The translations under genes were made by a program, and so were the position numbers. The notes under the pieces are model-generated. The model was not told the DNA's origin and did not search any database. It saw only the letters and a program-made list of their open reading frames with translations. A stretch of 64,000 bases of DNA from an uncultured Tropicimonas sp. Lineage in GTDB: Bacteria > Pseudomonadota > Alphaproteobacteria > Rhodobacterales > Rhodobacteraceae. Shown here one piece after another: positions 52,133-58,261 of this stretch. The stretch is from the NCBI GenBank assembly GCA_947495685.1, contig CANLZY010000004.1:155585-219584 (forward strand), given 5' to 3'. Within the stretch, counting starts at the first letter, position 1, and each line of letters opens with the position of its first letter.

Positions 52133-54268
52133 TTACTCGGTCTCTTCCGTGTTCTTTGCTTCTTCGCCGGTTTCCTGGTCGACAACTTTCATCGACAGGC
52201 GAACCTTGCCGCGATCGTCAAAGCCCAGCAGCTTGACCCAGACTTCCTGGCCCTCTTTCAGGACGTCGGACGGATGGTTCAGGCGGCGATTCTCGATTTG
52301 CGAGACGTGCACGAGGCCGTCACGCTTGCCGAAGAAGTTCACGAAGGCGCCGAAATCGACGATCTTCACGACCTTGCCCTTGTAGACCTTGCCTTCTTCG
52401 GGCTCTGCCACGATCGAATAGATCATGTCATAGGCCCGCTGGATGGCTTCGGCGTTCGGCGAGGCGATCTTGATCACGCCATCGTCGTTGATGTCGACCT
52501 TGGCGCCCGACATTTCGACGATCTCGCGGATGACCTTGCCGCCCGAGCCGATCACTTCACGGATCTTGTCGGTCGGGATGTTCATCGTCTCGATGCGCGG
52601 GGCGTGGGCCGAGAACTCGGTCCGGCCGGAGGTCAGGGCCTTGGACATTTCGCCGAGGATGTGCAGACGGCCTTCCTTGGCTTGCGCCAGGGCCTGCTTC
52701 ATGATGTCGGGCGTGATGCCGGCAACCTTGATGTCCATCTGCAGTGACGTGATGCCTGCTTCGGTACCGGCAACCTTGAAGTCCATGTCGCCGAGGTGAT
52801 CCTCGTCGCCCAGGATGTCGGTCAGAACGGCATAGGAGCCGTCATCTTCCAGCACCAGACCCATCGCAACACCTGCAACCGGTGCCTTCAGCGGAACGCC
52901 CGCATCCATCATCGACAGCGAGGAGCCGCAGACGGTGGCCATGGAGGACGAGCCGTTGGACTCGGTGATCTCGGAGACCAGGCGGATGGTGTAAGGGAAA
53001 TCGGTGGGAGCGGGCAGGACGGCCTGAAGGGCGCGCCAGGCAAGCTTGCCGTGACCGATTTCGCGACGGCCCGGAGGTCCGAAGCGACCGACTTCGCCAA
53101 CCGAATACGGCGGGAAGTTGTAGTGCAGCATGAAGTTGCTGCGGTAGTTGCCGTGCAGCGCGTCGATGATCTGCTCGTCTTCGCCGGTACCCAGCGTGGT
53201 GATGACCAGGCCCTGGGTCTCGCCACGGGTGAACAGGGCAGAGCCGTGCGTGCGCGGCAGCAATCCGACTTCGGACGCGATCGAGCGCACGGTGGTCGTG
53301 TTGCGACCGTCGATACGCTTGCCGTTCTTGACGACATCGCCGCGCAGGATCGAGCTTTCCAGCTTTTTCAGGGCAGAGCCAAGGTTGGCGTCGGCCAGCT
53401 GCTCTTCGGTCAGGGCGCCGGTGATCTTGGCACGAACCGCAGACACCGCGTTGGTGCGTTCCTGCTTGTCGAGAATCGCGTAGGCGGCGCGCATCTCTTC
53501 TTCACCGGCAGCCTTTACGGCAGCGAACAGGTCGGAATAGTTGGGCGGCTGGTAGTCGAAGGGCTCCTTGGCGCAGTCTTCGGCCAGATCGATGATCAGG
53601 TCGATGACCGGCTGGATCTGCTCGTGGGCAAAGACCACGGCGCCGAGCATCTCGTCTTCGCTCAGCTCGTAGGCTTCCGACTCGACCATCATCACGGCGT
53701 CCTTGGTGCCGGCGACAACCAGGTCCAGGCGCTGCTCGGGGTTGAGGCGCAGCTGGTCCATATCGGACACTTCGGGGTTCAGAACGTATTCGCCATCGGA
53801 GAAACCGACGCGGCAGGCGGCGATCGGGCCCATGAACGGAACGCCCGAGATCGTCAGCGCAGCCGAGGCGGCGATCATGGCAACCATGTCGGGATCGTTG
53901 ACCAGATCGTGGCTCAGCACGGTGCAGATCACCAGCACTTCATGTTTGAAGCCGGGAACGAACAACGGGCGGATCGGACGGTCGATCAGACGCGAGGTCA
54001 GCGTTTCCTTTTCGGTGGGGCGGCCTTCACGCTTGAAGAAGCCACCCGGCACCTTGCCGGCTGCGTAATACTTTTCCTGGTAGTGAACGGTCAGCGGGAA
54101 GAAGTCCTGGCCCGGTTTGGGGGCCTTGGCAAAGGTCACGTTGGCCATGACCGCAGTCTCGCCCAATGTGGCGATGACGGAGCCGTCGGCCTGACGGGCA
54201 ACCTTGCCGGTTTCCAGTGTAAGCGTCTCTTCGCCCCACTGCATGGATTTCTTGGTTTCGGTAAACAT
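52133..54268 (-). CDS. pnp: Polyribonucleotide nucleotidyltransferase
   Basis: RNase PH repeats, KH ([29 protein letters not shown]) and S1 ([28 protein letters not shown]) domains. Confidence 0.98.
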
Positions 54269-54446
54269 CATATTATCCTGTTGGGGAGCGCTCCCGGGCC
54301 CATCCCGGGTCTCCCGTTTGAATGGCGGCCCCATTGCCGCCGACCCCTATCCTGTAGCACGCGCCCGGGGTCCGAGGCGTCACGTCTCAGATGGGCGGCG
54401 CATACAGGAGAATGCGGGGTTTGGGAAGTAGCGGATTTTTTTGCAC

Positions 54447-55085
54447 TCACTCCGGCGCAGTGCCGCCGAAGCTGTTCATGGCGTTCACCGTCTCTGCCAG
54501 TGAACGCCGCGCGCCGGTCTGAAGGTACTCCATCGCGTTCAACGCGGCCTCGTGCGCCGGGATGCTGGAACCGCCGACACACTCCTCGATGACCCGGCAG
54601 AAATAGTCCGACTGATGGCCGTCGACAAAGGTGTAGTGCACACAGACATCTGTCAGCCCGCCCACCAGCAGCAATGTCTCGACCTTGAGGCCGCGCAGAA
54701 GGATCTCGAAATCGGTGCCGAAAAAGGCCGAGTACCGGCGTTTGGGTACGACGTAGTCGTCTTGCCGGACATCCATCTGTTGGATCGCAAGTGCGGTGCC
54801 CAGAGCGTTTTCCAGGCAATGCGCATCCTCGGCACCATCCAGTTCGCGGCCAAAATCGATGCCGTCGGGGCGGTGAACCTCCTGAACGAAGATGACGGGA
54901 ATGTCATTCGCGCGGGCGGCGTCGATGGCGGTGCGCGCTGCCAGCATGCGCTCCTTGTAGCCGGGCATGTTGTCGATGGCGCGAACCGCGCTGTCGTCGA
55001 TGAAGGTGCTGGCCTGGATGTCGATCACGATCAGGGCCGGTCGCCCCTCGATCAGTTCGCGGGGCAGGGTGGACTGGTTTGCCAT
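54447..55085 (-). CDS. Cysteine hydrolase, isochorismatase family
   Basis: IVIDIQAST (Asp), VPKRRYSAFFGTDFEILLRGL (Lys), LLLVGGLTDVCVHYTFVDGHQSDYF (Cys) catalytic triad pattern. Confidence 0.92.
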   Translation of the reverse strand: MANQSTLPRELIEGRPALIVIDIQASTFIDDSAVRAIDNMPGYKERMLAARTAIDAARANDIPVIFVQEVHRPDGIDFGRELDGAEDAHCLENALGTALAIQQMDVRQDDYVVPKRRYSAFFGTDFEILLRGLKVETLLLVGGLTDVCVHYTFVDGHQSDYFCRVIEECVGGSSIPAHEAALNAMEYLQTGARRSLAETVNAMNSFGGTAPE

Positions 55086-55199
55086 GGTGACGGTCTTTCT
55101 GGTGGTAACTCTGGTGCGGATTCACGGTGGGCCGTTGCCGCATGCTTGCCCAACAAGATCCGGATTGCTAGAGCCTGCCGCGGGCTGCGTGACCGCAGC

Positions 55200-55246
55200 G
55201 GAGGACGACCTCCCCCATCGTGGGTATCATTCCGGGACGACCCGGA
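55200..55246 (+). ncRNA. Candidate guanidine-II (mini-ykkC) riboswitch
   Basis: Hairpin 1 GGAGG-ACGA-CCTCC (55200-55213) and hairpin 2 TCCGGG-ACGA-CCCGGA (55231-55246), 17-nt linker, then SD GGGAGAGG (55249-55256) and sugE ATG 55265. Confidence 0.88.
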
Positions 55247-55264
55247 CAGGGAGAGGAATGTACC

Positions 55265-55579
55265 ATGCCCTGGATCATCCTGATCGTTGCGGGCCTGTTC
55301 GAAGTCGTCTGGGCCTATTGCATGAAACAGTCGGACGGTTTCACCCGGCTGGGACCGACGGCACTGATGCTGGTGACGATGTTTGTTTCGATCTGGTTGT
55401 TGGCGCTCGCGATGCGCAGCCTGCCGCTGGGCACATCCTACATGGTCTGGACCGGGATCGGCGCCGTCGGCAGCTTTGTCGCCGGGATCGTGATGCTGGG
55501 CGAAGTGGCGAGCCCGATGCGGCTGGTGGCGGCGGCTTTGATCGTGGCCGGCATCGCGGTGATGAAGCTGGCCTCCTGA
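55265..55579 (+). CDS. sugE: SMR family exporter SugE/Gdx (guanidinium exporter type)
   Basis: MPWIILIVAGLFEVVWAYCMKQSDGFTRLGPT (E13-equivalent GLFEVVWA), SLPLGTSYMVWTGIGAVGSFVAGIVMLGE. Confidence 0.94.
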   Translation: MPWIILIVAGLFEVVWAYCMKQSDGFTRLGPTALMLVTMFVSIWLLALAMRSLPLGTSYMVWTGIGAVGSFVAGIVMLGEVASPMRLVAAALIVAGIAVMKLAS

Positions 55580-55586
55580 AACGACA

Positions 55587-55612
55587 AACGCCCGCTCGTT
55601 GGAGCGGGCGTT
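55587..55612. terminator. Bidirectional-type hairpin between convergent sugE and rpsO
   Basis: AACGCCCGCTC-GTTG-GAGCGGGCGTT, 11-bp stem in a 53-bp convergent gap. Confidence 0.75.
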
Positions 55613-55632
55613 GCCAGTGAATTCCGCAGGAG

Positions 55633-55902
55633 TTAGCGACGGATGCCGAGGCGCTTGATGAGGTCCTGATAACGGGCCTCTTCCTTGCCTCTGAGGTAGT
55701 CCAGCAGTTTCCGGCGCGTGGCGACGAGCTTCAGAAGACCACGACGGGAGTGGTTGTCCTTCTTGTGGGTCTTGAAGTGCTCGGTCAGGGTGTTGATGCG
55801 CGAGGTCAGAATGGCAACCTGGACTTCGGGCGAACCGGTGTCGCCTTCCTTGGTTGCGTATTCCTTCATGACGACGCTTTTCGCTTCGACGGTAATCGAC
55901 AT
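55633..55902 (-). CDS. rpsO: 30S ribosomal protein S15
   Basis: [52 protein letters not shown]. Confidence 0.98.
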
Positions 55903-56414
55903 CGGGGTCTCCTTTGCAAGGTTCAGGGTTCATGGCGCAAGCCGGGATGTCGTCCAGCAGGGCCCGTGGAGAGATATCCGCGACTCGGTAAGGACCGCAG
56001 ATGGGGGCTGATAGAGGAAACCGGACGCAAACGGAAGAGGTTTTGTGAATCCTGTCTGGTCCAGCCGGGGAACTGAGGATCCGTTGGCGACAATCCCCGG
56101 TCCGGCGGGGGCTGACCTTCCCGAGTTGGAACGAGCAGATGCCCGGGTTTGACAGGGTTTCGCTCGGACGCCAGCGGAGTTGTTCGAGAGACAGGTCTTG
56201 GTCGGGCAAGCGGCCATGGATCATCGATGGCGGGTGGTATGGCCGGGATCACTGGCTTGTCCTCCGAAGAGGATCAGATCGTCGCGCCCCATGACGGCAT
56301 TGCGAGGTCGGATGCGTAGGTCATGCTGCCTTGGAACGGGGTGGGGCATCGATCCGAATGAATGCTTCCGAAGGGCGCAGGTCCTTGCGGGACGCAGGCT
56401 CGCGATGTCGCATG

Positions 56415-56945
56415 TCAGGCCAAGGTTCGGGCCAGATCGGGCTGCCAGGACTCGGGCTGGGTGTCATAGCTGATGTAGAGCGGATGACGTGGCTGGCCGG
56501 TCCGGGTCTGCCCGAGGCAGAGCAACGGGCGACCGGTGCCGTGCAGCAGGCGCGCGACCTCGGTCCCGCGGTTCTGGTGCACTCCGTGCGCTCCCCAGGC
56601 GCAGAGGATGTCGGTGGCCCAGAGGCAACCTTCCAGCAAGACACGGTCATTGTCCGGTCCGACCGGGGCAGACGCCTTGCGCATGATGGTCGGGTCGGTT
56701 TCGCGCCAGGCAAAGATGTTGCAGGCCCGAAACCCGCCATAGCCAAGCGCACGGGCCCGGCGTTCGCAACGTTCGATCGTGGGGTCGTTGGCCTGTTCTG
56801 TCGCTTTCGACGGGTTCAGCATGATGTAGAGCAGCCGGCGCCCCGTCTTGTCCCAGGTGCGGGTCAAGGCGTAGCGATAGCCTTCGCAGTCGGAATATAC
56901 CGCTGAAGACGGCGCGTCGCCCTTTTGAAAGGTGCGGGTGATCAT
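56415..56945 (-). CDS. DUF1643 domain-containing protein
   Basis: [63 protein letters not shown]; overlaps truB by 4 nt. Confidence 0.9.
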
Positions 56946-57862
56946 GTGCCTTCGGGCAGGTTGAACACACGAACCGGGTGCAGCTCGCCACTGCGATAGA
57001 TACCGATGGCGACCGGCTTGCCCTGGTAGGCGGCCCAGGCCGTGTCACCATACTCGACACCCGGCGCGGCGATCACCATTCCTGGGTTGCCGTTGCGCAT
57101 CCGCGTGGCGCCTTCGGGGGTGCAGGGCAGCATTTGCAGGTCGACCAACCCGTCCTGCAAGGGGCGCAGATAGGCGTCGAGCTCCGGGGTGCGCGCAAGG
57201 GTCTCCAACGTTTCCCAGTCCAGTGCGCCGTCGGTGTCGAAGGCACCCGACCAGGTGCGCCGCAGGGATTCGACATGGGCGTTACAGCCAAGAACGGCGC
57301 CAAGATCGCGGGCAATCGATCGCACGTACCCACCCTTGCCACAGACCATTTCCAGAACAGCGTGGTCGGCGTCCGGCCGCTCGATCAGGGTCAGGCTGTC
57401 AACGTACAGCGGGCGGGCGGCGATCTCGAAATCTTCTTCGTCCCGGGCCAAGGCATAGGCACGTTCGCCGTCGATCTTGACGGCAGAGAACTTGGGCGGG
57501 ACCTGCGTGATATCGCCGACAAAGGCAGGCAGGGCAGCGGAGATATCTTCGTCTGCCGGGCGCTGCTCGCTGGTTGCGATGACTTCGCCTTCGGCGTCGT
57601 CGGTGTTGGTCGCCTGCCCGAAGCGGACGGTGAATTCATAGGCCTTGAGCGCATCGGTGACGTAGGGAACGGTCTTGGTTGCCTCGCCAAGAGCAATGGC
57701 CAGCACGCCCGTGGCAGCAGGATCCAGCGTGCCGGCATGCCCGGCCTTGCGGGCGTCCAGCGCCCAGCGGACCTTGTTGACCACGGCGGTCGACGTTGGG
57801 CCAGCGGGTTTGTCGACGATCACCCACCCGGAAATATCGCGTCCCTTGCGTCTGCGTGCCAT
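56942..57862 (-). CDS. truB: tRNA pseudouridine(55) synthase TruB
   Basis: [61 protein letters not shown]. Confidence 0.96.
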
Positions 57863-58261
57863 GGTGCCCTCTGCCCTGTTGAGGGCGGCGCAGTACCGCG
57901 CCCGGACGAGTGCGTCAATGGGTTGGCGCTGGGAAAGCAAGGGCTCCCGCCGCTTTCGCCTGCCCGGAACGGGCCGTCAAAAGCGTTGGGCCGGGCGCCC
58001 TGCGGGCGCACGCACTTCCACCGACGGGACGGTTCGCGGCAAAGCGCAGGCGATATCGAGGAGATCTGTAGACTCGGTGCCGCGGGCTGGGTGGGGGCTG
58101 TTGGTCCGCGGCACCGAGATGAGCTTTCGCTCTCTACATAGGTCTCTTTTGACGACGCTGGATGGCGCGCTTGCGGGCTTTTCTGGGAAATCCGGGGGTG
58201 ATTTTGCGGCCGAAATGCGGCGAGACTTGATTTGCCGCGCACTGCGACCCAAACTCAATGC

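Follow-up and report, generated by a model that had tools for sequence, protein, structure and literature searches.

The sugE leader and its gene neighbourhood

The leader lies directly upstream of a sugE/gdx-like SMR exporter gene (55265-55579, plus strand, 104 aa, ATG at 55265-55267) in the 64-kb stretch of DNA that was analysed as a whole, hereafter called the window. Two plus-strand hairpins are found here; P1, GGAGG-ACGA-CCTCC (55200-55213), has 5 bp and P2, TCCGGG-ACGA-CCCGGA (55231-55246), has 6 bp, each closed by an ACGA tetraloop and each defined by the sequence, the RF01068 alignment and the covariation of helix 1 and helix 2, respectively. Both hairpins carry GG-ACGA-CC cores on GC-rich stems. 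They are separated by a linker of 17 nt read from the sequence (55214-55230, plus strand), in which the bases CCCA-TCG-TGGG (55214-55224) are able to form a small hairpin, and the CCC...GGG block pair of the linker is found again in most relatives. The dinucleotide CA separates P2 from the purine-rich, Shine-Dalgarno-like GGGAGAGG (55249-55256, plus strand), placing the end of P2 2 nt from GGGAGAGG and 18 nt from the sugE start codon, with a spacer of 8 nt between the GAGG within GGGAGAGG and the ATG. The layout of hairpins, linker and spacings given in a first-pass annotation of this DNA proved exact in every detail on direct reading of the sequence.

A further perfect hairpin of 6 bp, GCTGCG-TGAC-CGCAGC (55184-55199, plus strand), adjoins P1 on its 5' side, and in the predicted fold this hairpin, positions 55178-55183 and the linker form a possible three-way junction. 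No such hairpin was seen in the upstream sequences of the relatives inspected. A search for a sigma-70 consensus promoter found none; by eye only, TTGCTAGAG near 55165 is a possible -10-like element.

The usual gene order in this region is truB-rpsO-pnp. In the window, rpsO (55633-55902) and pnp (52133-54334) are separated by sugE and a divergent gene of the isochorismatase family (54447-55085, minus strand); rpsO, pnp and truB (56942-57940) are all on the minus strand, and the whole region spans 52133-57940. The intervening pair looks like an insertion into the truB-rpsO-pnp order.

By far the best family for the SugE protein was the SugE equivalog NF008512 (1.6e-36, 124.7 bits, just below the curated cut-off of 126), and it also matched PF00893 (SMR) at 9.5e-27. 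The closest solved structures were 8vxu and 6wk5, the latter being the guanidinium exporter Gdx-Clo with guanidinium (PMC9574504), to which the protein aligns over 102 residues (5.4e-27). The SMR and SugE family matches, together with Gdx-Clo among the best solved relatives, support the earlier reading in that the target gene is SugE/Gdx-like.

Identification of the RNA family

Scanning of the whole window with cmscan against 4227 Rfam families gave RF01068 (Guanidine-II) at 55197-55245 on the plus strand, covering model positions 1-48 of 48, with 38.0 bits (E = 5.3e-4) as compared to a gathering score of 32 bits. This was the sole gathering-level Rfam match within the window, and the only RF01068 match in the 5.6-Mb genome (E = 1.1e-5). 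The covariance model thus upholds the candidate guanidine-II call of the first-pass annotation. Its remark that the element would be absent from an ORF-only annotation is overstated in general, as any pipeline running Rfam would report a match of 38 bits.

Two GC-rich hairpins arisen by chance, or terminator-like hairpins of another kind, might be imagined in a GC-rich genome when the stems are short. The paired motif GGACGACC-N5-35-GGACGACC had a single occurrence in the window and none in 100 shuffles, and this result, the RF01068 match and the covariation described below rule out chance hairpins, an explanation to which we give practically no weight. We also looked for the other guanidine riboswitch classes; guanidine-I, guanidine-III and guanidine-IV gave no gathering-score match in the window, where cmscan found RF01068 only, and RF00442 (guanidine-I) was absent from the genome, so that these classes were ruled out. 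The element is almost certainly a riboswitch of the guanidine-II class, placed in the 5' leader of a gene for a guanidinium exporter.

Conservation in relatives

Searching public genomes with the SugE protein as query gave 80 relatives, at least 29 of which carry a pair of ACGR hairpins upstream of the start codon. Across 30 sugE leaders of the tetraloop form, the window included, the distance from P2 to the ATG is 13-23 nt. Stem covariation was assessed in an alignment of 22 sugE leaders, in which neither hairpin shows any change in the ACG of its loop. Here 89.6% of the stem cells are paired, as compared to 25-60% when the partners are slid, and 5 of the 11 stem pairs change on both sides. 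Such double-sided changes amount to 14 cells against 5.6 in shuffles, and in 500 shuffles neither the number of paired cells, nor that of double-changed cells, nor the covariation score of the real alignment was ever attained. ACGR loops with compensatory stem changes are hence present in the relatives, in agreement with the initial call.

RF01068 matches were found in 52 of 298 genomes of the window's family and in 39 of 385 genomes of its class. The nearest relative, locus L151 (genome G684, same genus), has the riboswitch-sugE unit in common with the window, and its leader is identical to that of L031, from an uncultured Tropicimonas, which makes Tropicimonas, or a genus near it, the probable genus of the window. 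The L151 riboswitch (1438-1485), with ACGG in both loops, scores 31.2 bits, just below the gathering score of 32, and gathering-level scans therefore undercount guanidine-II in alphaproteobacteria.

The cassette is patchy, and among the sampled genomes of the same genus L151 alone has a close canonical riboswitch-sugE unit, as might be expected if the copy in the window were degenerate or non-functional. However, neither the two loops nor the invariant GG-ACGA-CC cores show any defect, the match exceeds the gathering score and the sugE gene is intact, and we regard a decayed copy as very improbable.

Proposed switching mechanism

Published work describes guanidine-II as an ON switch of translation: two ACGR hairpins kiss, and two guanidinium ions are bound as their loops do so (PMC5486947, PMC7544219, PMC12186494). 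By analogy with the class, the riboswitch most likely activates the exporter gene upon accumulation of toxic guanidinium. As guanidinium rises, each ACGA loop would bind one ion and the two loops would kiss, their C-G steps pairing across, whereby P1 and P2 would be locked. The ribosome site GGGAGAGG would then be free and SugE would be made, which in turn would export guanidinium in exchange for protons. The ending of P2 2 nt from the ribosome site fits the anatomy of a translational switch, and from the class behaviour we infer ON switching via the freed ribosome site.

The state without ligand is a less certain step. We infer an OFF state in which the 3' arm of P1 and the start of the linker (CCTCCCCC, 55209-55216) would cover GGGAGAGG. 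CCTCCCCC resembles the anti-Shine-Dalgarno end of 16S rRNA and is complementary to GGGAGAGG over 4 bp, one mismatch and 3 bp; in the window the duplex of the P1 arm and the Shine-Dalgarno region has an energy of -12.6 kcal/mol. In the energy model the fold with both P1 and P2 formed is favoured over the covered state by about 7 kcal/mol (-34.2 versus -27.3 kcal/mol). Across leaders the Shine-Dalgarno-region duplex is hardly better for own pairs (-9.6) than for swapped pairs (-9.4), and the OFF structure is for this reason without support from co-evolution. Although the complementarity is present, the energies and the comparison of own with swapped pairs lend no support to a thermodynamic switch in which P1 simply alternates with a helix covering the Shine-Dalgarno sequence, and this model was set aside. 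Co-transcriptional folding or competition with the ribosome could be relevant to the OFF state. The predicted fold further has the ribosome site partly paired with codons 2-3 (CAGGG/CCCTG), even with P1 and P2 formed.

The energy model without a stable alternative covering the ribosome site would also suit an RNA that senses guanidinium but acts mainly via mRNA stability or early termination. There is, however, no terminator-like site between P2 and the ATG, P2 is only 2 nt from the Shine-Dalgarno sequence and translational control is what has been described for the class (PMC12186494). We consider such a mode of action unlikely here, and translational control remains the preferred reading.

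A hexaloop form of P1 in other sugE leaders

A canonical P2 (CCGGGACGRCCCGG) without an ACGR P1 is found in 28 of the 80 sugE leaders (L032, L052, L061, L064, L066, L078, L085, L095, L102, L106, L107 and 17 others). The P1 loop of these leaders is a hexaloop, CMACGY, which reads CCACGT, CAACGT or CCACGC, and CGACGT once; an example of the hairpin is GAGG-CCACGT-CCTC. Further hexaloop (CMACGN) sugE leaders are L152, from another species of the window's genus, L112 and L114. Since the intermediate loops CCACGA (L152) and CAACGA (L114) exist, two bases have apparently been inserted before ACGN in the hexaloop, where the R of ACGR is often replaced by Y. The ACG is invariant in the hexaloops, and AAG is frequent directly 5' of P2.

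The stem that closes the hexaloop co-varies: its innermost pair is GC in 18 sequences and AU in 8, and outside this pair two and one more double changes occur. One base is bulged from the P1 stem in a Novosphingobium-like subset, in which the outer helix is retained despite differing sequence (GGCGG/CCGCC, ACGG/CCGT, GCAG/CTGC). On the SugE tree, the deep branches of which are weak, the loop types cluster and about six changes are needed; one or several origins of the hexaloop form are possible.

When scanned with the Rfam Guanidine-II model, the tested hexaloop loci gave no match up to E = 1, and the L152 locus none up to E = 0.5. A covariance model of the hexaloop form (R1) and a pattern were each searched over the 385 class genomes. 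The R1 model gave 5 matches, 4 of them directly before sugE, these matches being not fully independent as L111 resembles the training sequences; the pattern likewise gave 5 matches, at least two of which (L145, L146) look like chance. No description of the hexaloop variant was found in the literature searched, a scope outside which lies Sherlock et al. 2017, reportedly the study that defined the guanidine-II class. To us the case is evenly balanced that the alphaproteobacterial hexaloop form is an undescribed guanidine-II subtype with altered loop docking or ligand choice. If so, it would show the smallest guanidine aptamer tolerating a remodelled loop, and the class would extend to leaders that Rfam now misses.

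Other target genes of guanidine-II RNAs

Target genes were read at 29 further RF01068 loci (L002-L030), the best-scoring of the family sample. PF05232 (BTP, PACE-type transporter, chlorhexidine efflux) was the commonest target among these best-scoring riboswitches with 16 of 29 (L003, L004, L005, L007, L009, L011, L013, L014, L016, L018, L019, L024-L026, L028 and L029), followed by sugE with 11 and DUF1989 with 2. The class sample added three more PF05232 targets (L132, L134, L141). The arrangement would put PACE-type proteins forward as candidates for guanidinium export, and PACE/BTP genes under guanidine-II control would point to guanidinium exporters within this efflux family. Among titles and abstracts from full-text literature searches, whose scope leaves out Sherlock et al. 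2017, nothing relevant appeared on a link between guanidine riboswitches and PACE or chlorhexidine efflux. In L127, near 1561-1980, a guanidine-II match precedes an unusual target, a gene for an ACT-domain protein (PF10000, PF13840).

Comparison with known systems

The main interest lies in the relatives, with their hexaloop form and PACE/BTP targets, and not in the window copy, which is the genome's only detected guanidine-II sensor and matters little beyond annotation. For annotation, the riboswitch identifies the adjoining SMR gene as one for a guanidinium exporter (Gdx) and not for a general drug pump. The residues E13, W16, S42, Y59 and W62, which make up the guanidinium binding-site network of Gdx-Clo (PMC9574504), are also found in the SugE protein of the window.

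Guanidine-I (RF00442), guanidine-III (ykkC-III) and guanidine-IV share the ligand, and their target genes overlap. With guanidine-II (mini-ykkC, RF01068) the leader has in common the two GC-rich ACGA hairpins directly before the sugE ribosome site, and its linker of 17 nt falls within the described range, 7-40 nt and in most cases at least 13 nt (PMC7544219, PMC5486947). There is no class-breaking difference from guanidine-II; the possible linker hairpin and the extra hairpin 5' of P1 are details of the lineage, and the copy is an ordinary and clear-cut new instance of a well-known switch before its classical target.
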